A stretch of DNA of 64,000 bases, from contig NZ_AP026738.1 in NCBI RefSeq assembly GCF_002157685.2, positions 3,844,001-3,908,000 on the forward strand. The letters run 5' to 3'. Under the pieces are notes generated by a model, which saw nothing but the letters and a program-made list of their open reading frames with translations, had not been told where the DNA came from and did no database searches. The stretch is from Comamonas thiooxydans (GTDB lineage Bacteria; Pseudomonadota; Gammaproteobacteria; Burkholderiales; Burkholderiaceae_C). The position numbers were made by a program, and so were the translations under genes. Shown piece by piece: positions 43,772 through 56,086 of the stretch; position 1 is the first letter of the stretch, and each line of letters begins with the position of its first letter.

Positions 43772-45175
43772 TCAATACACATCGCGCCGATAGCGACCCG
43801 AGCCCAACAGCTCGGCCACCTTGGCCTCGCCCAGAATGGCCTGCAGCGTCAAATGCACGCCTTGACCCATGCCGTTCAGGCTGCCGCAGACATAGATGGC
43901 TGCACCACGTTCCACCCACTGCCGGACTTCCTCGGCATGGCTGCGCAGCAAATCCTGCACATAGCGCGAATCCTTGCCATTGCGCGACCAGGCCTGATCC
44001 AGCCGTGCCAGTCGACCTTGCCCGAGCCATGCGCCCAATTGATCGGCAAATAGCGCGTCATGCTGTGGACTGCGCTCTCCGAACAACAGCCATTGATCAC
44101 CTAGCTCTTGCTGCACGCGCGCCTTGATATGGCTGAGTAGGCCCGCCAGGCCCGAGCCATTGCCGATCAGCATCAACGGCCGCCCGGCGTTGTCACCGAG
44201 CCTGAAGCCGCGGTGCTCGCGCAAGGTCAACGGCAGCACATCTCCCTCGGCCATGTCGCAGCACAACCAGTGCGACGCAAGGCCCGGCGAACCATCGGCA
44301 CGCGTGCTCTCGCGCACCAGCAGTTGCAGGCTGCCGTCGGCCGTGATCGAGGCGATCGAGTAGTCGCGCGCGCGTTCAGGGTCGGCGGGCACGCACAGGG
44401 ACACCAGATCTCCCGACTCCCAGTGCGGCAGCTCGCCGGACTGCGGCGTCCACTCCAGCAGGTATAGAGCCCCGCCCTGGCTGCCGGGATTGAGCAAACG
44501 CCGTCGTCCTAGCACAAAGGGAATGCTGACCGGCGCCTGCAACCAATCCGACTCCGGCTCCTGGGTGGGCGCAGACTCGCCCAGCAAGTCCTGTCGCATC
44601 TGAGCGACCTGGGTCTGCCAGCTCTGCAAGCTCGAGGCATCCATATTGTCCACGCAGACCAGATCGCTGCGCGCGCCGCTGGTCTGCAACCACTCATGCA
44701 CCTCCACACCAAACGCACAGAACTCCTGGTATTCACGATCACCCAGCGCCAGCACCAGGCTTTGGTGCCGGGTCAGCGCAGGCTGCGTGGCCATGAGCTG
44801 CTGGACAAAGCCCAGTGCATGATCGGGTGCATCGCCCTCGCCCGTGGTGGACAGCAGCCACAGGCTGCGTGCATATTGCTGCAGCAGCTCGGTCGTCAGC
44901 TTCTCCACGGCCAACAGACGCACCTGCAGACCGCCATCGACCAACATCTTGCCCGTGGCGCGCGCCAGAGCTTCGGCCTGCCCCGTCTGGCTGGCATAGG
45001 CAATCAGGACGGCAGGCGCAGCAGCACCGCCCTGCGAGGCATTGCTCTCGGCCTCATCGGCCAAGCGCTGCTTGCGTACCTTGGTGCCAATACCCCAGCA
45101 CATGCCGGCATAGGCGGCTACCAAACCCATAGCCCCATAGATGCGCTCGGGCGTCAAAATCCATTCCACTGTCAT
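43772..45175 (-). CDS. Membrane-anchored flavodoxin/ferredoxin-reductase fusion (CysJ-like)
   Basis: A 467-residue diflavin reductase. An N-terminal helix (GAMGLVAAYAGMCWGIGT) would anchor it in the membrane. A flavodoxin FMN domain follows (VLIAYASQTGQAEALARATG; LLSTTGEGDAPDHA), then an FAD/NAD(P)H FNR module (RARDYSIASI for FAD; GNGSGLAGLLSHIKARV and CGSLNGMGQGVHLTL for the nucleotide). It should carry electrons from cytoplasmic NAD(P)H to a membrane acceptor. No sulfite reductase hemoprotein is adjacent. The last gene of the PepSY-DUF2271-DUF4198-apbE operon, its ATG overlaps the apbE stop. That context suggests it feeds ferric-siderophore or heme-linked reduction, not sulfite reduction. 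Confidence 0.9.
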   Translation of the reverse strand: MTVEWILTPERIYGAMGLVAAYAGMCWGIGTKVRKQRLADEAESNASQGGAAAPAVLIAYASQTGQAEALARATGKMLVDGGLQVRLLAVEKLTTELLQQYARSLWLLSTTGEGDAPDHALGFVQQLMATQPALTRHQSLVLALGDREYQEFCAFGVEVHEWLQTSGARSDLVCVDNMDASSLQSWQTQVAQMRQDLLGESAPTQEPESDWLQAPVSIPFVLGRRRLLNPGSQGGALYLLEWTPQSGELPHWESGDLVSLCVPADPERARDYSIASITADGSLQLLVRESTRADGSPGLASHWLCCDMAEGDVLPLTLREHRGFRLGDNAGRPLMLIGNGSGLAGLLSHIKARVQQELGDQWLLFGERSPQHDALFADQLGAWLGQGRLARLDQAWSRNGKDSRYVQDLLRSHAEEVRQWVERGAAIYVCGSLNGMGQGVHLTLQAILGEAKVAELLGSGRYRRDVY

Positions 45176-46296
45176 GCCTCAAATTGGTTGATCCAGGCGG
45201 GTGTCTTGAGCACCTGTCTGCGAGCCTCATTGCCATCGGATGCGAGATGCGATGTGAGCACGGCTGCAATCTCATGCTCACGGGCAAAGTCCAAGCCTTG
45301 CTGCGGACCCAGCACCGTGAGCACGGTGGCCAGCGCATCGGCGTGCATGCACTCCTCATGAAACACGGTCACGCTGGCCAGATCATGCGTCACCGGCCAG
45401 CCCGTGCGCGGATCCAGCGTGTGCGAATAGCGCCTGCCAGCCTGCGTGAACTGATGCCAGAAATCGCCCGAGGTGGCAAAAGCGCCCTCCCTGCAGGCCA
45501 CGACCAGCGATTCGGCCTCGGCAGAACCGCCCGTGCCCAGCTGCACCTGCCAGGGCCGCCCGTCAGGGCGCGCGCCCCAGCTGCGCAGCTCACCGCCGAT
45601 TTCGAACATGCCCGCAGCCCAGCCTGCGGCCTGCAGCTTTTGCACCGCCCAGTCCACGGCAAAGCCCTTGGCAATGCCGCACAAATCCAGCTCCAGACCA
45701 CCGCTCTGCTGCAACTGCCGGGTCTGTGCATTCCAGCGCAGATGACCATGGCCGCTGGTCTTCAGCAAGCGTTCGATCTCCTCGCTGGGCGGTGCCTGCC
45801 CTGAATGCGGCTGCAGCGGGTTCTGACGCGGCCCGAACCCCCATAGCGAGACCAGCGCTCCCATGCCGGGGTCCATCGCCGCGCCTGAAAGCCTTGCCCA
45901 ATGCAAGGCCGCTTCCAGAACCAGAGCAAACTCCGTAGGAAGAAAATGTATTTCACCGGGTCTTGAGCGATTGAACCGGGTGATCAGCGAATCCGCCTCC
46001 CAGTTGCTCATCTGGGCAATGACATCCTCAAACACCTGTTCCAGCAGGGCCTGCACCGGCTCCGTGGGCAGGTAATCGGGATTGACCAGGCGCAGCGACC
46101 AGTGCGTGCCCATGGTCTGGCCGGACAGGCGGTGAATGCGCCCGTCCTGCTGGTGCTGCAGGCTTGCGGGTCTCCAGCGCTGCACGCCAAAGTCCAGCGC
46201 CGGCGTCCGGGGACGAGCCTGACTCTGTGCCGCCGACGAGGGCAGTTGCCAGAGACTGGCGTCAAAGCGTACACGGGGGGGGGTGGGCATGGGCAT
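45172..46296 (-). CDS. apbE: FAD:protein FMN transferase (ApbE family)
   Basis: A 374-residue enzyme that attaches FMN covalently to Ser/Thr of target proteins. Family motifs are SGQTMGTHWSLRLV, GLELDLCGIAKGFAVDWAVQ, FEIGGELRSWG, GAFATSGDFW and HTLDPRTGWPV. It lacks a visible signal peptide or lipobox at its N-terminus (MPMPTPPRVRFDASLW), although most relatives are exported. A run of nine C falls in codons 5-8, so the reading frame at the start is sensitive to slippage. It lies between DUF4198 and the reductase gene, overlapping the latter (ATGA). The flavin target is probably the DUF2271 protein or another membrane partner of this operon. Confidence 0.93.
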   Translation of the reverse strand: MPMPTPPRVRFDASLWQLPSSAAQSQARPRTPALDFGVQRWRPASLQHQQDGRIHRLSGQTMGTHWSLRLVNPDYLPTEPVQALLEQVFEDVIAQMSNWEADSLITRFNRSRPGEIHFLPTEFALVLEAALHWARLSGAAMDPGMGALVSLWGFGPRQNPLQPHSGQAPPSEEIERLLKTSGHGHLRWNAQTRQLQQSGGLELDLCGIAKGFAVDWAVQKLQAAGWAAGMFEIGGELRSWGARPDGRPWQVQLGTGGSAEAESLVVACREGAFATSGDFWHQFTQAGRRYSHTLDPRTGWPVTHDLASVTVFHEECMHADALATVLTVLGPQQGLDFAREHEIAAVLTSHLASDGNEARRQVLKTPAWINQFEA

Positions 46297-46319
46297 CCAG
46301 ACAAAGACGAAAACAACGA

Positions 46320-46338
46320 CGCGCCCGTAGCGGGCGCG
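46320..46338 (-). terminator. GC-rich hairpin between DUF4198 gene and apbE
   Basis: CGCGCCCG pairs perfectly with CGGGCGCG around a three-base loop. On the minus strand it is followed by TCGTTGTTTTCG, a weak T tract. It may attenuate expression of apbE and the reductase relative to the upstream genes. Confidence 0.5.
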
Positions 46339-46365
46339 CGCATTCAGTCCATCAAGCGCTAACGC

Positions 46366-47166
46366 TTAAGGCAGGACTTCCAGAGTCGCGATATAGCCCA
46401 GGCGGCGCTCTGTTGCCTTGGCAATGCTGGTCTTCTTGTCCGTGGCATCGGCGTTCAGCCAGAACAGACCTGCACGAGGGAACTTGATCTTGACCTGCCC
46501 CTTGGCATCGGTCTTGAGCTTCATGGCGTCCACACCGTCGCGATAGCGAATGCCGTCGGCCACCAGCTCCAGCTCCAGATCGGCGGCGGGCTTGCCGTCA
46601 AGATGGAATTCGAACGTCGCTTCTTCGCTGGCCACCAGATCATTGGGGTGGGTCACGGGCTTGAGCTCCAGGCCCTTGCCGGTCAGCGCCAGCGCCGAAG
46701 GCTTGCCCAGGGACACAAAGGTTTCCATGCGGCGCAGATTCTCGGTCACGCGCACTTCCTTGGCATCGGCAGGAATCTGCTTGAGCACTTCTTCCACCGA
46801 ACCGCGCAGGCGCTTGGGCTGGCCGTTGGCATCCTTGTAGCCGCCCATCACGCCGGTCATCAGCATGGTGACGCGGTAGGTACCGGTCTTCTCAGGCTTG
46901 AAGTCGAACATGCTGCGCAGCTCGCCCTTGGCCACATTCTTCATTTCCACGGCCGCGCCGTCGGGTGCGGTCACCTTGACGGCTTCCAGACCCAGCGGAC
47001 GGTGGTTGAAGAAGAACACATCGTTGGACACGGCCGCATCCACCGTCACCCAGTCGGACTTGGACAGCACGGTGCTGGAAGGCTTGAACCACAGATCATG
47101 CGCCTGGGCGCCCAGGGCAGCCAGAGCCAGAGTTGCAGCGACGATGGCACGAGTTTGGAACTTCAT
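46366..47166 (-). CDS. DUF4198 periplasmic protein with mature N-terminal histidine
   Basis: A 266-residue exported protein. The signal peptide is MKFQTRAIVAATLALAALGA, with cleavage after AQA, leaving HDLWFKPSS as the mature start. Beta-rich domains follow, with an Ig-like segment (TFEFHLDGKPAADLELELVA). DUF4198 proteins (CbiK/NikM-like) are often linked to metal uptake. A mature N-terminal His, as seen here, could coordinate metal through the amino terminus. The ATG at 47166 has AAGGACCTGAT upstream. It belongs to the iron-linked reductase operon. Confidence 0.88.
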   Translation of the reverse strand: MKFQTRAIVAATLALAALGAQAHDLWFKPSSTVLSKSDWVTVDAAVSNDVFFFNHRPLGLEAVKVTAPDGAAVEMKNVAKGELRSMFDFKPEKTGTYRVTMLMTGVMGGYKDANGQPKRLRGSVEEVLKQIPADAKEVRVTENLRRMETFVSLGKPSALALTGKGLELKPVTHPNDLVASEEATFEFHLDGKPAADLELELVADGIRYRDGVDAMKLKTDAKGQVKIKFPRAGLFWLNADATDKKTSIAKATERRLGYIATLEVLP

Positions 47167-47259
47167 ATCAGGTCCTTGAAAACAGAAAGGGTGACAAATC
47201 CGAAAATGAGGCGAGGTGCAAGCCAGGAACACCGGGCAAGAGCCGCCTCGCAGCGAAGG

Positions 47260-47316
47260 TGTTGTCCCCCTCCGCGAAGCAGAGAGGGGGAAGGCGCTGA
47301 GCGCCTCAGGGGGTGA
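47260..47316. repeat. GC-rich intergenic repeat-like element
   Basis: The segment GTCCCCCTCCGCGAAG followed by CAGAGAGGGGGAAGGC forms a C/G-rich inverted structure, then GCGCTGAGCGCC. It fills the gap between the DUF2271 and DUF4198 genes. A related C/G-rich element is at 52170-52250. Both look like REP-type intergenic elements. Confidence 0.5.
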
Positions 47317-47838
47317 TCAAGGCTTCAATTCCAGCTTGATCGCGCCCAGCTCGGTGCTGCCATTGGCGCTCAGGCTGGTGGCCTGCTTGACGGGCCACTC
47401 GAAGGGAATGGATACCAGCTCGCGGCCGCCGACTTCACGGGCGGCTTCCACCATCAGCTTGTACTGACCGGGAGCCAGCTGGGGCAGCGGGTTCTTGCCT
47501 TCGGCAAAGGACAGCGCATGGCTGCCCACGGGCTTGGTCGGCTGGGTCACGCCGTCGATGGGGAAGCTCAGCTCACGGCCGGTACGGCGCCACCACTGGC
47601 GCATGTCCTTGAGCCACTTGGTGCCCTCGGCGTTCTTCATCTTTGCGTCGTACCAGACGGACAGATTGGCTGCCACGCCGCCATCGGCCTTTTCCAGCCA
47701 CACGGCAACATAGGGCTTGTGGTATTCGGCCACCTGCAACTGGGGCACGGTCACCGCCACATTCATACCGCCCGCGAGTGCCGGCAGGCCCACCACGGCG
47801 CTCAATGCCACCGAGGTTTTGAAAATCCGCTTCGCCAT
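47317..47838 (-). CDS. DUF2271 periplasmic protein, possible FMN carrier
   Basis: A 173-residue exported protein with a signal peptide (MAKRIFKTSVALSAVVGLPA, ending near LAGG) and a beta-rich DUF2271 domain. The segment D95-GVTQPT-101-KPVG aligns with the family's Asp...Thr motif, usually D-x-x-[ST]-G-A-T, where ApbE attaches FMN to the threonine. Asp and Thr are kept, but the Gly-Ala is replaced by Gln-Pro. Neighbouring apbE supports a flavinylated electron carrier, while the altered motif leaves it open. It lies 28 bases after the PepSY gene. The ATG at 47838 has AAGGAAG upstream. Confidence 0.88.
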   Translation of the reverse strand: MAKRIFKTSVALSAVVGLPALAGGMNVAVTVPQLQVAEYHKPYVAVWLEKADGGVAANLSVWYDAKMKNAEGTKWLKDMRQWWRRTGRELSFPIDGVTQPTKPVGSHALSFAEGKNPLPQLAPGQYKLMVEAAREVGGRELVSIPFEWPVKQATSLSANGSTELGAIKLELKP

Positions 47839-47866
47839 TTTTTCTTCCTTCACAAAATTCTTGGGC

Positions 47867-48517
47867 TCAGTGCACGAGCAGCAATACCAGCAGGGCCGGC
47901 AGCACCAGTCCCAGGCCCACCATGGGCCAGGTCATGGGTCGGCGCTGCGCATGCATCTTCAGGATCAGCAGACCCGTAATGCAGAACACCAGGCAGCCAA
48001 TCGCAAAGACATCTATGAACAGGCTCCAGGCTCCGCCCGTATTACGCCCCTTGTGCAAGTCGTTGAGGTAGGAGATCCAGCCTCGGTCGGTCTTCTCGTA
48101 CTCGACCGCGCCCTCCTTCAGGTCCACACGCAGCCAGGCATCGCCGCCCGGGCGCGGCATGGGCACATAGGCCTCGTCTTCGCTCCACTCCACTGCAAAA
48201 CCCTTGGCACTGACCTTGATCTGCTGAGCCAGCCAGCCATCCACCTCGGCAGGCAAGCCCACGGCATTCTTGTTCGCCGCTTCCACACCATGCCTCTGGG
48301 CTTGCTGCAGTTTTTCGAGCAAATCCCGAGGCAGTTGTGCATCACGCGATTCGACCTTGGGCTTGGACTCGATCTGCCCGGCGTGATTCAGGGTGAATCC
48401 CGTCACGGCAAACAGCAGCATGCCGATCAGGCAGATGGCGGAGCTGATCCAGTGCCACTCATGTAATTTCTTGAGCCAGTACGCCCGCTGCGGGGCGTTG
48501 GAGGAAGCCGCGGTCAT
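47867..48517 (-). CDS. PepSY-associated membrane protein
   Basis: A 216-residue inner-membrane protein with an N-terminal helix (WISSAICLIGMLLFAVTGFT) and a periplasmic PepSY-like domain (about 50-160). Two C-terminal helices follow (LFIDVFAIGCLVFCITGLLI; PMVGLGLVLPALLVLLLV). Histidines flank the membrane faces (LHEWHW, LNHAG, LNDLHKGRN), as in PepSY-TM proteins thought to bind heme and pass electrons. It is the first gene of the minus-strand operon, divergent from the TonB receptor. It is a likely trans-membrane electron step between the reductase and periplasmic carriers. Confidence 0.9.
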   Translation of the reverse strand: MTAASSNAPQRAYWLKKLHEWHWISSAICLIGMLLFAVTGFTLNHAGQIESKPKVESRDAQLPRDLLEKLQQAQRHGVEAANKNAVGLPAEVDGWLAQQIKVSAKGFAVEWSEDEAYVPMPRPGGDAWLRVDLKEGAVEYEKTDRGWISYLNDLHKGRNTGGAWSLFIDVFAIGCLVFCITGLLILKMHAQRRPMTWPMVGLGLVLPALLVLLLVH

Positions 48518-48891
48518 TCAGAACTTTCTGGGATTGCGTTGCCGCCGGGCCGGGCAGAGCCGACCTTTGGGACATAGCGCCACAAGGCCAGTCCTTGCTT
48601 GCGCAGCAAGCCGGCATTCTAGTTGTGCAGATTCTAAATGCATCTCACTTTTATTTACTTTACTTGACGTAAACAAAGCGCCCGCCCAAGGCCAGGGCAT
48701 TTACGCCATCCCGAAAACTCGTGGCTGCATAGACCGGCAGAACCCGCACCGTCTATCCAGGCAGCCTGTCTGTTGCCGTACTGCAACAAAACGTAGATTA
48801 TCGGACTCCATTATTGAATGGTATCGAGAATTATTATCAATATCACCTAGAATTCGCACGCTTTTTCAAAAATCGACTCTTCATCAAAAGC
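48518..48891. other. Divergent intergenic region of the iron-uptake locus
   Basis: This 374-base gap separates the PepSY operon from the TonB receptor and must hold both promoters. The right half is AT-rich and contains the Fur-box-like site listed separately. The left AT-rich stretch (48640-48675) has a possible minus-strand -10 (TAGAAT), but no convincing Fur box. Confidence 0.5.
48826..48844 (+). promoter_or_regulatory. Fur-box-like operator upstream of the TonB receptor
   Basis: GAGAATTATTATCAATATC matches 15 of 19 positions of the classical Fur consensus GATAATGATAATCATTATC. It ends 47 bases before the receptor start, consistent with repression by Fe-Fur. Confidence 0.75.
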
Positions 48892-51168
48892 ATGTCCAAC
48901 AACCATCTGACCCCGACCGACTCCAACGGCTTGCGCTGCGAGCTCAAGCAAATCGTGATTGCCGCAGGCCTGTGCCTGATTGGCGCCAGCGCGATGGCTC
49001 AGCAGGAAACCACCTTGTCCACCGTGAATGTGGAAGCCGCTGCCGACGCCAGCTTCAAGACCGAAGCCAGCCCTCAGGGCAAGTTCACAGCGCCCCTGCT
49101 GGACACGCCCAAGACCGTTCAGGTCATCAATGAAGAGATCATCAAGCAAACAGGTGCCACCAGCTTGCAGGATGCTCTGCGCTCCACCCCCGGCATCACC
49201 TTCGGCAACGGCGAAGGCGGCAACCCCAGCGGCGACCAACCCTTCATCCGCGGCATGGACGCCCAGTCCAGCACCTTTGTGGACGGCATGCGTGACATCG
49301 CCGCCGGTACCCGCGAACTGTTCAACGTCGAAGCCGTGGAAGTCATCAAGGGTGCTGACTCCGCCTACGCTGGTCGCGGCGGCGCAGGCGGCTCCATCAA
49401 TATCACCACCAAGAAGGCCAAGAACGAGAACTTCATCTCGGGCGACGTGGGTCTGGGTACCGACAACTATCTGCGCGGCACACTGGACATCAACCGCAAG
49501 ATCAACGAGACCACCGGCATTCGCCTGAACGCCATGGGCCACAGTGCCGACGTTCCCGGCCGCAACGGTCCTGACAACAAGCGCTGGGGCATTGCCCCCA
49601 CCGTGACCTTTGGCATGGGCACAGCCACCGAAGTGACCCTGTCCTGGCAGCATCTGCAGACCGACAACACCCCCGACGGCGGCGTACCTTATCTGTATAG
49701 CAATGGTGCCAACGCAGCCGGTTCAACCAACGCAACGCAACTGCCCGGTGGCTCCAAGATTCGCCCCACTTACGGCAACAGCCGCGACAACTGGTATGGG
49801 CTGAACAACCGTGACTACGAGAAGGAAAAGAGCGATCTGTTCACGGCCTCGGTCACCCACAAGTTCACCGACACCAACAAGATCCGCAACAGCCTGCGCT
49901 ATAGCAAGACCAAGCAGGACTATGTCTGGACACAGCCCGACGACTCCAAGGGCAATGCCCTCAATGGCTATGTCTGGCGCCGTGGCAACTATCGTGTCTA
50001 TGACACCACCACGCTGCAGAACGTGACCGAGTTCACTGGCAAGGAGCAGACCGGCTCCATCGGCCACAGCTATGCCTTCGGCCTGGAACTGTCCAAGGAA
50101 AAAGCAGATGGCAGCTCGGGCGCAATCCAGAGCGGCACTGGCGTGTGCACCTCGGTGTCCGACCCCTGGTGCACCACCTTGAGCAACCCCAGCGGCGCCA
50201 ATGCAGCCTGGAATGTCCCCTTGACTCTCCCAGCGCAATCTACCGTCAACAAGATCGACACCATTGCTGTCTACGGCTTTGACACTCTGAAGCTCAACGA
50301 GCAATGGCTGGTGAATGCCGGTCTGCGCGTGGACCACTACAAGCTCAACGCTTCCGGCCCCGCCGGCGGCCGTGGCGCCAGCGCCTACCCGGCGTATGAC
50401 CTGAGCCGCAGCGATACGATGTTCAACTACCAGCTGGGTGTGGTCTACAAGCCCGCATCCAATGGCAGCATCTACGCCAATATCGGTACCTCTTCGCGCC
50501 CCGGTGGCTCGACTTTGGGCAACGGCAGCGAGGACCTGACCACGACCACAGATGCGCTGATCAGCCTGAAGCCGGAAAAAACCAAGTCCATCGAGCTGGG
50601 CACCAAATGGGACCTGCTGGACAAGAAGCTGAACCTGACTGCCGCAGTCTTCCGCAATGAAGTGACCAATGTGCGCATCAGCGATGCAACCGGCACGTAC
50701 ATGGGCGGCAACAAGGAAGTCAATGGCATCGAACTGGGCTTTACCGGCCAGATCCTGTCCAATCTGAGCGTGTTCGGTGGCTATACCTTTATGGATAGCG
50801 AATTCAAGAACATGGGCAAGGACGATGTTCGCAATGGCCTGCCCTTCTACAACACACCCAAGCACAGCTTCAGCCTGTGGACCAGCTACAAGCCCATGGC
50901 CAAACTGACACTGGGTCTGGGTATCTATGCTCAGAGCGACGTTGCTGCCAGCTACATTCAAGGCCAGGGCGGCATCGTGACCAAGGGCGCCTCCGGCTAT
51001 GCCCGCTACGACGCGATGATGGCCTACCAGATCGACAAGAACCTGAGCTTTCAGCTGAACGTCTACAACCTGGGCAACAAGGTGTACTACACCGGCGTGC
51101 GCTCGCCTCATTACGCCAATATGGGCGCTGGCCGCTCGGCCGTGGCCTCGCTCAAGTTCACGTACTAA
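48892..51168 (+). CDS. TonB-dependent siderophore receptor (Fiu type)
   Basis: A 758-residue outer-membrane receptor. A long signal sequence (LKQIVIAAGLCLIGASAMAQ) is followed by a plug domain (TPKTVQVINEEIIKQTGATS; AVEVIKGADSAYAGRGGAGG; SINITTKK) and a 22-strand barrel ending in VASLKFTY with the terminal aromatic. Plug features resemble Fiu, a catecholate siderophore receptor, so ferric catecholates are the likely cargo. I chose the ATG at 48892; the 26 residues before it are not signal-like. It is energised by the TonB-ExbB-ExbD system encoded 3 kb downstream. Confidence 0.92.
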   Translation: MSNNHLTPTDSNGLRCELKQIVIAAGLCLIGASAMAQQETTLSTVNVEAAADASFKTEASPQGKFTAPLLDTPKTVQVINEEIIKQTGATSLQDALRSTPGITFGNGEGGNPSGDQPFIRGMDAQSSTFVDGMRDIAAGTRELFNVEAVEVIKGADSAYAGRGGAGGSINITTKKAKNENFISGDVGLGTDNYLRGTLDINRKINETTGIRLNAMGHSADVPGRNGPDNKRWGIAPTVTFGMGTATEVTLSWQHLQTDNTPDGGVPYLYSNGANAAGSTNATQLPGGSKIRPTYGNSRDNWYGLNNRDYEKEKSDLFTASVTHKFTDTNKIRNSLRYSKTKQDYVWTQPDDSKGNALNGYVWRRGNYRVYDTTTLQNVTEFTGKEQTGSIGHSYAFGLELSKEKADGSSGAIQSGTGVCTSVSDPWCTTLSNPSGANAAWNVPLTLPAQSTVNKIDTIAVYGFDTLKLNEQWLVNAGLRVDHYKLNASGPAGGRGASAYPAYDLSRSDTMFNYQLGVVYKPASNGSIYANIGTSSRPGGSTLGNGSEDLTTTTDALISLKPEKTKSIELGTKWDLLDKKLNLTAAVFRNEVTNVRISDATGTYMGGNKEVNGIELGFTGQILSNLSVFGGYTFMDSEFKNMGKDDVRNGLPFYNTPKHSFSLWTSYKPMAKLTLGLGIYAQSDVAASYIQGQGGIVTKGASGYARYDAMMAYQIDKNLSFQLNVYNLGNKVYYTGVRSPHYANMGAGRSAVASLKFTY

Positions 51169-51480: not shown

Positions 51481-52161
51481 ATGTTGCTACGCATCCCCTG
51501 CCTGCTCACTCCCGATGAAGTTCGCCACTGCCGCCAGGCGCTGGAAGCCGCCAGCTGGCAGGACGGCAAGACCACGGCCGGTCATGTGGCGGCTCAGGTC
51601 AAGAGCAATCTGCAGCTGCCGCTGGACAGCAAGACCGGCCAGCAGATAGGCGACCTGATCCTGGACCGGCTGGGCCGCAACCCGCTGTTCATGTCGGCAG
51701 CCCTGCCGCTCAAGGTCCTGCCGCCGCGCTTCAATCGCTATGAAGGTGGAGGTACCTATGGCAACCATATCGACAACGCCTTCTTCACCATTCCGGGCAC
51801 GGCCATCAAGGTCAGAACCGATGTCTCCACCACGGTGTTCTTCAGCGATCCTGACGAATACGAGGGCGGCGAGTTGATGGTAGAAGACACTTTCGGCCAG
51901 CAAAGCGTGAAGCTGGCGGCGGGCGACGCTATCGTCTACCCCGGCACCAGCTTGCACCGAGTCAACCCCGTGACGCGCGGCACGCGCTATGCCTCGTTCT
52001 TCTGGACGCACAGCCTGGTCAAGTCGGCGGAGCAGCGCCGTCTGCTGTTCGATCTGGACCAGAGCATTCAGCAACTCACGCAAGAGCAGCCCGAGCATCT
52101 GCGCATCGCTGCCCTCTCGGGTACCTATCACAATCTCTTGCGCATGTGGTCCGAAAGCTAG
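51481..52161 (+). CDS. piuC: PKHD-type Fe(II)/2-oxoglutarate dioxygenase (PiuC/YbiX)
   Basis: A 226-residue non-heme iron dioxygenase. The iron ligands are H96 and D98 ([10 protein letters not shown]) and H159 (GTSLHRVNP), and the 2-oxoglutarate arginine is R169 (TRYASFFW). This family sits beside Fur-controlled TonB receptors in many proteobacteria and is induced by low iron. Its substrate is not established. The receptor gene just upstream fits that linkage. Confidence 0.95.
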
Positions 52162-52293
52162 CTCCCTCCTGATCGGCTTTGCCGCCTCCCCTTGAGGGGA
52201 CGGCAGCCTTTGCTGGAGTTGCCTTCGCTGGCTGCCCCCCCCACTTAGCCATGCCTGCTTTGCTGCCTCGCCCCAATCCAACCGGCTTGATTT
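52162..52293. repeat. C/G-rich intergenic element between piuC and the oxidase gene
   Basis: The sequence contains CCTCCCCTTGAGGGGACGG, an inverted CCCCTTGAGGGG core, and a later run of eight C. It resembles other GC-rich intergenic elements of this genome (47260-47316). It may separate or attenuate the two genes. Confidence 0.5.
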
Positions 52294-53436
52294 ATGACTG
52301 TTGAACCTTTGAATGCCGCAGGCCAGCCCGTCAAACCGCCACTGACGCAGATTTCCGCGCAGATAGGCTCCCTGGCGGACTACGCCCGGCTAGCCCGCGA
52401 GCATATGGAGGCTCAGGCCTGGACCCACCTGGAAAGCGGTGCGGACCAGGGTCTGACCCTGGGCCACAACCGCCAGGCCTTCGACCGCATCCGTCTCTGT
52501 CCTGAGCCACTGGCCGATCTGTCCGCCGCGCATACGCGGCAAAGCCTTTTGGGTCAGAGTCTGGACTGGCCGTTGTTGCTGGCACCGGTCGCCTACCAGC
52601 GGCTGGCGCACCCCGAAGGCGAACTCGCCACGGCGCGAGCGGCCATGGCCATGCGCACCGGCATGGTGGTCAGCACTTTGTCCAGCTGCACGCTCGAGGA
52701 AATCGCCCAGGCCGCGCAAGCCGCAGCGCAGGAGCTGGGGCGCAGCGGCCCACTGTGGTTCCAGCTCTACCAGCAGCCAACGCGCGAGCACACGCTGCAG
52801 CTGATTCGCCGCGCCGAAGATGCCGGCTACCAGGCCCTGGTCTGGACGGTGGATGCCCATATCAAGCGCTCCAGCTACCCGCTGCCGCCAGGCGTGGAGG
52901 CCGTCAATCTGCGTGGCATTCCCCAGCCACGGCAGACCGGCGATCTGATGAGCGAGCACATTCTGTTCGGCAGCGAACTGGCCCGAGGCGCACCCACCTG
53001 GGACGACCTGGTCTGGCTGCGTCAGCAAACCCGGTTGCCCCTGATCGTCAAAGGTCTGCTCTCGGCCCGCGCCGCCGCGCAAGCCGTGGAGCTGGGGGCC
53101 GATGCCATCGTGGTATCCAACCATGGCGGGCGAGTGCTGGACACCGCCGTCTCCCCCCTCGAAGTGCTGCCGGCCATTCGTGCGGCCACGCCTGCCCATA
53201 TTCCACTGCTGATGGACGGCGGCGTGCGCCAGGGCACCGATGTACTCAAGGCCATCGCGCTGGGTGCCAGCGCCGTGCTGCTGGGTCGGCCGCAAATGCA
53301 TGCCCTGGCAGTGGCCGGCATGCTGGGCGTGGCTCATATGCTGTATCTGCTGCGCGCCGAGCTGGAGCTGGCCATGGCCCAGACCGGCTGCGCCAGCCTT
53401 GAGCAGATCGGGCCCGGGCTCTTAACCACTTGCTGA
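52294..53436 (+). CDS. FMN-dependent alpha-hydroxy-acid oxidase/dehydrogenase
   Basis: A 380-residue TIM-barrel flavoenzyme of the lactate/glycolate oxidase family. FMN- and substrate-binding motifs are LLLAPVAYQRLAHPEGE, WFQLYQQPTREHT, LIVKGLLSARAA, the catalytic VSNHGGRVLDTA, and MDGGVRQGTDVLKAIALGA. It oxidises 2-hydroxy acids to 2-keto acids, passing electrons to oxygen or quinone; the substrate is unknown. It is placed between piuC and bfd in an iron-starvation cluster, which suggests low-iron expression, for example as an iron-free alternative. That reason is inference. Confidence 0.92.
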   Translation: MTVEPLNAAGQPVKPPLTQISAQIGSLADYARLAREHMEAQAWTHLESGADQGLTLGHNRQAFDRIRLCPEPLADLSAAHTRQSLLGQSLDWPLLLAPVAYQRLAHPEGELATARAAMAMRTGMVVSTLSSCTLEEIAQAAQAAAQELGRSGPLWFQLYQQPTREHTLQLIRRAEDAGYQALVWTVDAHIKRSSYPLPPGVEAVNLRGIPQPRQTGDLMSEHILFGSELARGAPTWDDLVWLRQQTRLPLIVKGLLSARAAAQAVELGADAIVVSNHGGRVLDTAVSPLEVLPAIRAATPAHIPLLMDGGVRQGTDVLKAIALGASAVLLGRPQMHALAVAGMLGVAHMLYLLRAELELAMAQTGCASLEQIGPGLLTTC

Positions 53437-53465
53437 TTGTGCGTAATTTGGTGGCATGCATTGCA

Positions 53466-53484
53466 AATGCGATGGATTCTCATT
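53466..53484 (+). promoter_or_regulatory. Fur-box-like operator upstream of bfd
   Basis: AATGCGATGGATTCTCATT agrees at 15 of 18 informative positions with the palindrome AATGAGAAT-n-ATTCTCATT. It lies about 48 bases before the bfd start and probably controls bfd and the tonB genes. Confidence 0.75.
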
Positions 53485-53531
53485 TATACTCCGCCTATTA
53501 CATCAATAGCCAGCAACAACTGCCTGTAGCC

Positions 53532-53825
53532 ATGATCGTCTGTGTATGCCGCCGGGTTTCTGACCGAGAAATAGCACGCCACGCGCATGCGGGGATGAGC
53601 TTTGACGAAATCCAGTTTGAATTGGGTGTTGCCACACAATGCGGGCGCTGCGAAGGCTGCGCACGCGATGTCGTCGCCCAGTGCAGTGCAAGCCATCCGA
53701 TCGCGGCCATCCACAACGAAGCGCAATCCTGCGCGTCGGTGCAGACGGTTCAGCTTGCCACCAACATTCTGGAAAGCAAAGCATGGCCCACTTCTCCGTC
53801 CTCTCAGCCGTCTTTGGCAGTCTGA
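53532..53825 (+). CDS. bfd: Bacterioferritin-associated ferredoxin
   Basis: A 97-residue [2Fe-2S] protein that reduces bacterioferritin to release stored iron. The cluster cysteines C4, C6, C37 and C40 (VCVC and QCGRC) have the Bfd spacing, within a helical domain of about 65 residues. The C-terminal 30 residues go beyond the usual Bfd length and lack conserved features. It is preceded by a Fur-box-like site, consistent with induction at low iron. The ATG at 53532 starts the family sequence MIVCVCRRVSDREI. Confidence 0.92.
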   Translation: MIVCVCRRVSDREIARHAHAGMSFDEIQFELGVATQCGRCEGCARDVVAQCSASHPIAAIHNEAQSCASVQTVQLATNILESKAWPTSPSSQPSLAV

Positions 53826-53866
53826 TTCTCGTGATGGTATGCACCTGGTGGATCCTGCGTGAATGA
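53783..53866 (+). CDS. Possible 27-residue membrane peptide overlapping bfd
   Basis: In the frame shifted from bfd, an ATG at 53783 preceded by GGAAAG encodes MAHFSVLSAVFGSLILVMVC followed by TWWILRE, a single hydrophobic helix with a charged end. It overlaps the last 43 bases of bfd and ends 103 bases before tonB. It could be a chance ORF, but the compact helix and ribosome site make it plausible. No homolog is known to me. Confidence 0.4.
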   Translation: MAHFSVLSAVFGSLILVMVCTWWILRE

Positions 53867-53969
53867 TGCAATCCTGTCAGCGTGCCCTGCTTCCTGTGCC
53901 TGCTATTGCCGGTTGACCAGCGCTTCTCCCTTCTGATCCCAGCCTGCGCTGGTTGCTCTTCTCGTTCTT

Positions 53970-54698
53970 ATGTCCCAGTCTGATCGATTTGCACCTGCCA
54001 GCGGCCCAAGCCGCAATATGGCAGTTGCTGGTGCTGTGGTTGTCGTACACGCTGCCGCCCTGTGGGCCATGCAGCATGGCCTGGCACAGCAAAAGCCGCC
54101 AGAGATAGTGATTCCCGCCAGCGTGATTGCCCAGTTTGTGGCACCGCCGGCTGCCGAACCTACCCCGCCGGCCCCTCCCCCTCCTCCCAAGCCTCCGGCA
54201 CCAGCACCCAAGCCCGAGACCAAACCGCAGCCCAAGCCCGAAGTCAAGAAGGCTCCGCTGCCCAAGGCCATCAAGGACCCGACACCGGCACCGGCTGCAC
54301 CTCAAGGGGCATTGGAGAACAGCGACAGCAAACCGGACAAGACACCGCCGGCGCCACCCGCGCCCCCGGCACCTCCGGCTCCGCCTGCGCCTCCCGCACC
54401 ACCAGCCCCACCCAAGATCGAGCAGCCATCGAGCAATGCGGCCTATCTGAACAACCCCGCTCCCGCTTATCCTTCGGTCAGCAAGCGCATGGGGGAACAA
54501 GGCAAGGTGCTGCTGCGCGTCTATATCAACGAGCAGGGCCAGCCCGAGAAAATCGAAATCAAGCAGTCCAGCGGCTTTGACCGCCTAGATGACGCCGCCG
54601 TCAACACCGTGCGCCAGTGGAAGTTTGTCCCCGGCAAGCGCAACGGCGTAGCCGAACCCATGTGGCACATCGTGCCCATCAACTTTGTTCTCAAATAA
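53970..54698 (+). CDS. tonB: TonB energy-transducing protein
   Basis: A 242-residue protein that spans the periplasm to energise outer-membrane receptors. A membrane anchor lies at about residues 17-36 (MAVAGAVVVVHAAALWAMQH). A proline-rich spacer with PAP, PKP and PAPPAPP repeats (about 58-160) leads to a C-terminal TonB domain with GKVLLRVYINEQGQPEKIEI and WKFVPGKRNG. It is followed by exbB and exbD. The spacer DNA is a short-period repeat and could vary in length. Confidence 0.95.
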   Translation: MSQSDRFAPASGPSRNMAVAGAVVVVHAAALWAMQHGLAQQKPPEIVIPASVIAQFVAPPAAEPTPPAPPPPPKPPAPAPKPETKPQPKPEVKKAPLPKAIKDPTPAPAAPQGALENSDSKPDKTPPAPPAPPAPPAPPAPPAPPAPPKIEQPSSNAAYLNNPAPAYPSVSKRMGEQGKVLLRVYINEQGQPEKIEIKQSSGFDRLDDAAVNTVRQWKFVPGKRNGVAEPMWHIVPINFVLK

Positions 54699-54721
54699 AT
54701 CTGCAGTTCTCAGGAGTACCC

Positions 54722-55444
54722 ATGGAATCCCAATTCGGCATTGCCCACGTCTGGACACAGGGCGACTTCGTGACCAAAGGCGTGGCCATCATCTTGCTGG
54801 TCATGTCGGTGGCCTCTTGGCTGGTCATCATTCTCAAGGCGCTGGATATTGTGAAATTCAAGAAGTTCGCTACCCAGGCGCAGGACTTCTGGCACAGCCC
54901 CGATCTGGCCACTGGCCTGGAAAAGCTGGGTGACGACAAGCAGAACCCCTTCCGCTTCATGGTGCTCGAAGGCCGTGAAGCCTCCGCCCACCACCGCAAG
55001 ACCAGCGTCCACCTGCATGACACGCTGGACATCAGCGACTGGGTGACCCGCTGCCTGCGCAACGGCATCAACGAATTCACGGCCCGCCTGCAATCCGGCC
55101 TGGCCATTCTGGCCTCCGTGGGCTCGACCGCTCCCTTCATCGGCCTGTTCGGCACCGTCTGGGGCATCTACCACGCCCTGGTGGCCATCGGCATGTCCGG
55201 TCAGTCTTCTATCGACAAGGTGGCCGGCCCCATCGGCGAAGCGCTGATCATGACTGCCCTGGGTCTGGCCGTCGCCATCCCCGCCGTGCTGGGCTATAAC
55301 GCTCTGGTGCGTGGCAACAAGGGCATTTTGAACGCCCTCAACAGCTTTGCCCACGACGTGCACGCCTATTTCGTGACTGGTGCCCGCGTTTCCGTGGACG
55401 GCCAGGTCTCTGGCAACGTGCTGCCCCTGAAGAAAGGCGCCTAA
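54722..55444 (+). CDS. exbB: ExbB proton-channel subunit
   Basis: A 240-residue inner-membrane protein with three helices (AIILLVMSVASWLVIILKAL; LAILASVGSTAPFIGLFGTV; ALIMTALGLAVAIPAVLGYN). It is a MotA/TolQ/ExbB-type proton channel that powers TonB. The ATG at 54722 follows CAGGAGTACCC. It starts 23 bases after tonB and ends three bases before exbD. Confidence 0.97.
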   Translation: MESQFGIAHVWTQGDFVTKGVAIILLVMSVASWLVIILKALDIVKFKKFATQAQDFWHSPDLATGLEKLGDDKQNPFRFMVLEGREASAHHRKTSVHLHDTLDISDWVTRCLRNGINEFTARLQSGLAILASVGSTAPFIGLFGTVWGIYHALVAIGMSGQSSIDKVAGPIGEALIMTALGLAVAIPAVLGYNALVRGNKGILNALNSFAHDVHAYFVTGARVSVDGQVSGNVLPLKKGA

Positions 55445-56067: not shown

Positions 56068-56086
56068 GAGAATTGTTATCATTACA
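56068..56086 (+). promoter_or_regulatory. Fur-box-like operator upstream of hemP
   Basis: GAGAATTGTTATCATTACA matches 13 of 19 positions of the Fur consensus and overlaps the expected promoter region. It ends 28 bases before the hemP start. Confidence 0.6.

Follow-up and report, generated by a model that had tools for sequence, protein, structure and literature searches.

How does a periplasmic flavin carrier acquire its covalent flavin mononucleotide (FMN) when the transferase encoded beside it has no recognisable signal for leaving the cytosol? The question is raised by a five-gene operon on the minus strand of a 64,000-nucleotide stretch of the Comamonas thiooxydans genome (the window), which lies on a single contig of 5.9 Mb. 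A first-pass annotation of the window had read the five genes as encoding a PepSY membrane protein, DUF2271, DUF4198, an ApbE FMN transferase, and a membrane-anchored flavodoxin/FNR reductase, and Pfam matches bear out all five at that place. Its account lacked the two unusual features of the locus, an altered flavin attachment site in DUF2271 and an ApbE without a recognisable signal peptide. On balance, we lean toward the reading that the operon encodes a Fur-controlled NAD(P)H-to-periplasm ferric reductase, the carrier of which, DUF2271, would receive its flavin in the cytosol, from its own ApbE, ahead of Sec export. The locus is ordinary as an operon and of a known kind; the implied assembly route would be new, and the interest lies there. 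Periplasmic covalent flavoproteins are usually described as being loaded by an exported ApbE, which requires flavin adenine dinucleotide (FAD) outside the cytosol. Cytosolic loading, if true, would change that picture, bear on siderophore iron release in bacteria, and give flavin tagging more sites to work with.

The DUF2271 gene (47317 to 47838, minus strand; PF10029, 2.5e-48; likely start, ATG at 47838) encodes a protein with a predicted Sec-type signal peptide and 98% identity to its counterpart in Comamonas testosteroni ATCC 11996 (locus L010). Where the canonical ApbE site reads D-x-x-[S/T]-G-A-[S/T], the window protein has D-G-V-T-Q-P-T (47536 to 47556, minus strand), keeping the acceptor threonine, Thr101 (codon 47536-47538). 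When it was set beside its 120 closest listed homologues, proline stood in place of the motif alanine in 100 of the 121 proteins, and the last site residue was Thr in 120 and Ser in 1.

To place this variant, we assembled 134 loci, all picked by DUF2271 (the window, 31 from named genomes, and 102 fetched from others); matches below the Pfam cut-off, 10 in the phylum search and 3 in the order search, were excluded from fetching. A main-type DUF2271 was recognised in 111 loci. The other 23, with a short or unrecognised DUF2271, were excluded from the site counts, the site being read in 12 of them. In the alignment, the acceptor was T or S in all 111 main-type loci. Proline at the −1 position was found in 38 of the 79 main-type loci with an adjacent or fused ApbE and in none of the 32 without (32/70 with a separate signal-less ApbE, 6/7 with an ApbE-DUF2271 fusion, and 0/2 with an ApbE flagged as exported), where "without" means no ApbE inside the 11 to 16 kb fetched; 11 of these 32 lay outside our genome-wide ApbE search, and one, L106, comes from a genome whose operonic ApbE is signal-less. 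A Fisher test on the 108 unique sequences (35/76 versus 0/32), which ignores kinship, gave 2.2e-7. On a tree built from PepSY, DUF2271 with the site columns removed, and DUF4198, the proline trait changed 12 times and never on ApbE-less branches, which make up 36% of the tree length; the chance of this is 0.004 by length and 0.024 by branch count.

Some loci in the collection depart from this pattern of separate genes. The ApbE-DUF2271 fusions are L165, L166, L168, L169, and L192-L194, of which six carry the proline; the site of L165 is eroded (HGIARET). The shorter DUF2271 type (L108-L113, L170-L181, L183, and L195-L198) showed [S/T]GAS in the 12 of 23 that were read, and 20 of the 23 loci hold an ApbE without a recognisable signal. 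L023, from Diaphorobacter aerolatus, has both its DUF2271 and its ApbE gene broken across reading frames, which may reflect decay or a sequencing error.

An altered site might also belong to a DUF2271 that is no longer flavinylated and works without covalent FMN, its neighbouring ApbE modifying some other cytosolic protein. The departure from the canonical motif would fit such a loss, as would two results in passages of a review (PMC12052999): an Ala to Val change in the motif cut flavinylation in Klebsiella to about half, and a signal-less Klebsiella ApbE modifies a cytosolic fumarate reductase. Yet the acceptor is retained throughout, proline occurs in none of the 32 loci that lack an adjacent or fused ApbE, the opposite of what decay would leave, and six of the seven fusions carry it. 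The window genome, moreover, encodes one ApbE and one DUF2271, and no FMN_bind and no NqrB/RnfD were found in it; therefore, DUF2271 is the only recognised substrate in the families searched, although that search left out DUF3570 and substrates of unrecognised kind. Matches to FMN_bind occurred in 3 of the 26 genomes with an operonic ApbE. As for the rest of the operon, the site pattern was present in the matched domains of 1 of 58 reductases, 0 of 67 PepSY proteins, and 0 of 65 DUF4198 proteins. In a DNA pattern search of the genome, the canonical site was not clearly more frequent than its reversed control (63 and 43 matches versus 61 and 54). We consider a non-flavinylated carrier unlikely.

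The ApbE gene (45172 to 46296, minus strand; PF02424, 3.6e-73) has no in-frame ATG, GTG, or TTG start that yields a signal peptide, and neither the signal peptide nor the lipobox of an extracytosolic ApbE was found. Signal peptides were called by a home-made hydrophobicity test, not SignalP, that considers any such start and applies a threshold of 1.7. By this rule, 70 of 72 separate operonic ApbEs beside a main-type DUF2271 were unflagged, as were all 20 beside the short type. The two flagged were L118, probably falsely, and L133, a true lipoprotein. The 70 include L023, in which the gene is split and the signal not judgeable, and for L102 scoring began at an internal domain start, although its N-terminus, read by eye, shows no signal; both were excluded from the ApbE residue alignments and the residue-279 comparisons. 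As positive controls, the rule flagged DUF4198 in 104 of 107 cases and DUF2271 in 96 of 102 at a threshold of 1.5 (64/70 in signal-less-ApbE loci and 32/32 in ApbE-less ones) or 89 of 102 at 1.7. All 19 searched genomes with an operon lacking apbE have an ApbE elsewhere, the best of which was flagged as exported and showed a lipobox-like cysteine by eye in 19 of 19; 24 of their 29 total ApbE matches were flagged. By these predictions, an exported DUF2271 is paired with a signal-less ApbE in one lineage set and with an exported ApbE in another; under cytosolic loading, the side of the membrane on which this one carrier receives its flavin would differ between lineages. The signal-less ApbE and the non-textbook site suggest flavin attachment before the carrier is exported. 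As a side observation, L133 keeps the operon layout although its ApbE is a lipoprotein, so that nature has here moved the enzyme to another place.

The signal could have been missed, however, with ApbE leaving by an unrecognised route and acting in the periplasm as usual; passages of the same review state that Salmonella ApbE must be periplasmic to function. A short in-frame hydrophobic stretch does lie before the ApbE ATG in the window, L010, and L011, but it has no ATG, GTG, or TTG, L012-L014 do not retain it, and it overlaps a terminator-like hairpin. At 16 of the 70 loci, no more than 3 to 25 residues separate the most distant upstream in-frame ATG or GTG from the catalytic core. Unflagged ApbEs away from DUF2271, common in the family, could point to a signal type that our rule misses. 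We rate this export route as quite improbable. The hairpin (46319 to 46339, minus strand, between DUF4198 and ApbE) has 9 pairs followed by a T-rich stretch and might keep expression of ApbE and the reductase below that of the three genes ahead of it; terminator-like sites as a class showed no excess (4 found versus 6.3 in shuffles).

Twin-arginine (Tat) export as a general route for DUF2271 was rejected, a strict RR being present in 2 of the 70 signal-less-ApbE loci; the looser KR/RR form occurs in 14, mostly in the clade of the window, the signal peptides of which (MAKRIFKT) are near twin-arginine.

The window ApbE combines the Pfam domain with the Asp-Ser-His residues of a flavin transferase (their function is treated in passages of PMC12052999), and all 68 operonic ApbEs that were aligned retain S276, H292, and D320. 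Three residues beyond Ser276, position 279 holds Tyr in 28 of 39 operons with an alanine site but in 2 of 28 with a proline site, which made Tyr279 versus site the strongest of 441 features tested. Tyr279 is also present in 19 of 19 ApbEs from the genomes with an apbE-less operon and in L020, an alanine-site locus inside the Q-P-T clade. Trp280 changes only 3 times, too rarely to judge. Under cytosolic loading, the operon's ApbE would remain in the cytosol, flavinylate DUF2271 ahead of Sec export, and have co-evolved with the relaxed site T-Q-P-T. We give about an even chance to a fuller version, in which a dedicated cytosolic ApbE loads FMN pre-export with no periplasmic FAD, and enzyme and site, freed from the housekeeping ApbE, drifted to S/T-x-P-T with changes beside the catalytic serine.

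What, then, would the loaded carrier do? The first-pass annotation had proposed that flavins carry electrons from NAD(P)H out into the periplasm for iron uptake, and the domains, a Fur-like site, and the published work discussed below support it in part. Electrons would enter from NAD(P)H at the anchored flavodoxin/FNR reductase (43772 to 45175, minus strand; Flavodoxin_1, 3.8e-20; NAD_binding_1, 1.1e-7), pass to a heme of the PepSY protein, and move on to FMN covalently held on periplasmic DUF2271, which would reduce Fe(III) imported by the neighbouring receptor. The reductase matches CysJ and P450 reductase in the PDB, and its membrane anchor was read by eye from the sequence. The annotation had named an exclusive sulfite reductase partnership as fatal to its idea, and this looks unlikely, since the protein scores 194 bits versus the CysJ NCBIfam equivalog cut-off of 668 and a reductase match accompanies 83 of the 111 main-type loci. 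A sulfite-reductase role was set aside as without support, though genes for the sulfite reductase hemoprotein were not searched for.

The PepSY_TM_like_2 inner-membrane protein (47867 to 48517, minus strand; PF16357, 7.6e-83) is probably a heme-b electron conduit, as judged from its histidines: among 105 aligned proteins, H155 is kept in 105, H22 in 104, H45 in 92, and H189 in 78. Set against the two bis-His heme sites of FoxB, two of these are near-invariant and two less so. A single-sequence model was poor (predicted local distance difference test, 67.7), too poor for fold matching, so that the absence of a FoxB chain among the matches listed is uninformative; the PepSY sequence had no PDB match better than E 0.3. 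A different role, that of an inner-membrane siderophore permease, has been proposed for receptor-linked PepSY_TM proteins of Alteromonas (passages of PMC7190382). The near-invariance of His22 and His155, as expected of heme ligands, and the frequent presence of a diflavin reductase and ApbE alongside PepSY make a permease very unlikely here. The window genome has ten PepSY_TM matches including that of the window, and eight other loci (L001-L008) were fetched; ferric reductases may therefore be redundant there.

As annotated, a TonB-dependent receptor (48892 to 51168, plus strand; likely start, ATG at 48892) diverges from the operon, with barrel and plug Pfam matches of 1.6e-53 and 5.9e-21. It had been called Fiu-type, and that label needs correction: PDB entries 5nec (1.1e-169), 5fok (6.6e-162), and 5fp1 (1.1e-154), which we take to be PiuD/PiuA, are nearer than Fiu (6bpm, 1.1e-110). 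Downstream, a PKHD-type Fe(II)/2-oxoglutarate hydroxylase of the PiuC/YbiX/CciO kind (51481 to 52161, plus strand; NF003975, 7.8e-106, above cut-off) adjoins the receptor, as in PiuA-PiuC and CciT-CciO pairs. It opens a run of plus-strand genes (51481-55444), continuing with an FMN-dependent dehydrogenase, a BFD-like ferredoxin, TonB, and ExbB/TolQ-like genes; the hydroxylase and the TonB, ExbB/TolQ-like, and BFD genes had gone unrecorded. Receptor, hydroxylase, dehydrogenase, BFD, TonB, and ExbB/TolQ genes together indicate that the operon belongs to a larger iron-uptake island. A hydroxylase lies within 40 of the 111 main-type loci, mostly with the receptor. At least six arrangements occur, in which it stands on either side of the operon and in divergent, convergent, or co-directional orientation. 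It has therefore joined the operon repeatedly, which argues for a functional link between the two. From the PiuA-like receptor and the hydroxylase, the substrate may be a ferric catecholate. The iron part of the annotated substrate has support from homologues; its alternative, heme-bound iron, has none, nothing having pointed to heme, though heme genes were not searched for.

The annotated Fur-like site was recovered in the receptor promoter at 48826 to 48844 (minus strand), matching 16 of 19 bases of a Fur consensus; it is the top match in the 64-kb window, and none of 1000 intergenic regions simulated with a Markov model scored as high. Among nine scanned relatives with a divergent receptor, eight have a 14-16/19 match, and L019 has 11/19. 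A second block before the PepSY operon (48631 to 48663, minus strand) is conserved across nine aligned intergenic regions and matches the Fur consensus poorly; a GTGAGATGCATTT-like element resembling it is present in L016 and L101, both without a receptor. Elsewhere, a further Fur-like match (14/19) lies at 56068-56086, in the gap between two open reading frames (end of the first, 55864; start of the second, 56388).

The DUF4198 protein (46366 to 47166, minus strand; 8.7e-51; likely start, ATG at 47166) would bind metal on the periplasmic side. Its predicted signal peptide ends AQA|HDLW, and the mature N-terminus is probably His23, which, if cleavage is as predicted, gives the N-terminal His of a metal protein on a DUF4198 fold. 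Such a carrier could instead mark a system for nickel, zinc, or copper: passages on an Ideonella DUF4198 (PMC12537917) report nickel binding with a dissociation constant of 18 nM, and a model of the window protein matches Zcp with Cu, Zn, and Co. Set against this are the Fur-like site, the PiuA-like receptor, and the PiuC-like hydroxylase, together with the iron regulation of the corresponding operon in Caulobacter (passages of PMC3751524) and of such genes in Alteromonas (passages of PMC7190382). A metal other than iron thus seems to us a decidedly small possibility, and we infer an iron role, like flavinylation and metal binding by DUF4198, from homologues.

Several observations weigh against the iron-reductase and cytosolic-loading proposal. 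The route takes for granted that Sec would pass a chain carrying FMN. Kinship inflates the raw proline counts, and the tree has long branches (a tool warning). Tree-paired sign tests of proline versus ApbE adjacency are weak (p 0.06-0.5), none contradicting the tie and pairs being too few, and those of proline versus Tyr279 gave p 0.25-1 with some pairs opposite. In genome G105, a second DUF2271 (L106, S-G-A-T) stands away from any ApbE, and the only ApbE is the signal-less operonic one. L133 has a true lipoprotein ApbE beside the same gene set. The signal rule depends on its threshold: the 72 operonic ApbEs include 5 flagged at 1.5 and 7 at 1.3, and 1 when stricter. In the family sample, only 3 of 30 ApbE loci were flagged, and 15 of the 18 among them not placed beside a fetched DUF2271 were unflagged, so that either signal-less ApbEs are common in the family or the rule misses some signal; the missing signal is therefore not special to the operon. 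The unflagged family ApbEs away from the fetched DUF2271 loci include L067, L069-L071, L073, L078, L080-L082, L084, L085, L087, L089, and L090. As for iron, the Ideonella DUF4198 prefers nickel (passages of PMC12537917), and three loci that lack a hydroxylase (L016, L021, and L101) reach at most 13/19 upstream and so show no Fur-like site. In the window, the Fur-like site adjoins the receptor, 309 bases away from the PepSY start, and the second block is a poor Fur match; it is thus by analogy that we regard this strain's PepSY operon as a likely direct target of Fur.

DUF2271 itself is patchily distributed, being found in 22 of 120 family genomes, 70 of 398 in the phylum (65 above cut-off), and 21 of 200 in the order (19 above cut-off). 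The annotated order holds well beyond the window, PepSY-DUF2271-DUF4198-(ApbE)-(reductase) dominating the collected loci and recurring with ApbE and reductase across Pseudomonadota.

How does this locus compare with known systems? The annotation had thought the set little described, and print has more to say than that (PMC3751524, PMC12004947, PMC8238504). A 2021 eLife survey (PMC8238504) describes clusters of PF16357 PepSY, DUF2271, DUF4198, and ApbE, proposes iron reduction for them, and shows one DUF2271 flavinylated at a conserved [S/T]GA[S/T] motif. By its definition of a PepSY-like flavinylation system, the window holds a PF16357 protein (PF03929 or PF16357 being accepted) within 5 genes of ApbE/DUF2271 and at least one target gene with a signal peptide, its DUF2271 passing the rule. 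The parts and the proposed function are shared; the survey's systems have the [S/T]GA[S/T] site and extracytosolic flavinylation, whereas here the site is T-Q-P-T and the ApbE signal-less. In Caulobacter crescentus, CC_3059-3063 share the five genes, their order, Fur regulation, and a fitness effect with ethylenediaminetetraacetic acid (EDTA). Passages of PMC3751524 give 12- to 51-fold changes (Table 1, columns read as iron limitation and fur mutant) and establish Fur regulation with an array, lacZ fusions, and analysis of Fur sites, and passages of PMC12004947 report reduced fitness of operon insertions with EDTA. The difference is that cciT-cciO (CCNA_00028/00027) lies elsewhere in that genome, whereas here the receptor/hydroxylase pair is adjacent and divergent. 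DUF4198/DUF2271 genes of Alteromonas adjoin iron-responsive receptors (passages of PMC7190382). The operon and its iron link are therefore not new. In the passages of open-licence literature searched, neither proline sites nor the service of an exported DUF2271 by a signal-less ApbE was found described.

Among the closest single comparisons, the cytosolic Klebsiella ApbE likewise lacks a signal peptide, but its substrate is cytosolic, whereas the substrate here is exported. FoxB and VciB share a PepSY-type membrane protein tied to iron reduction; here, the PepSY protein is short, the reductase separate, and a covalent-flavin partner present. Finally, PiuA-PiuC, CciT-CciO, and Fiu-YbiX have the same succession of TonB receptor and PKHD hydroxylase, which in the Comamonas window stands directly divergent from a multi-gene flavin reductase operon.

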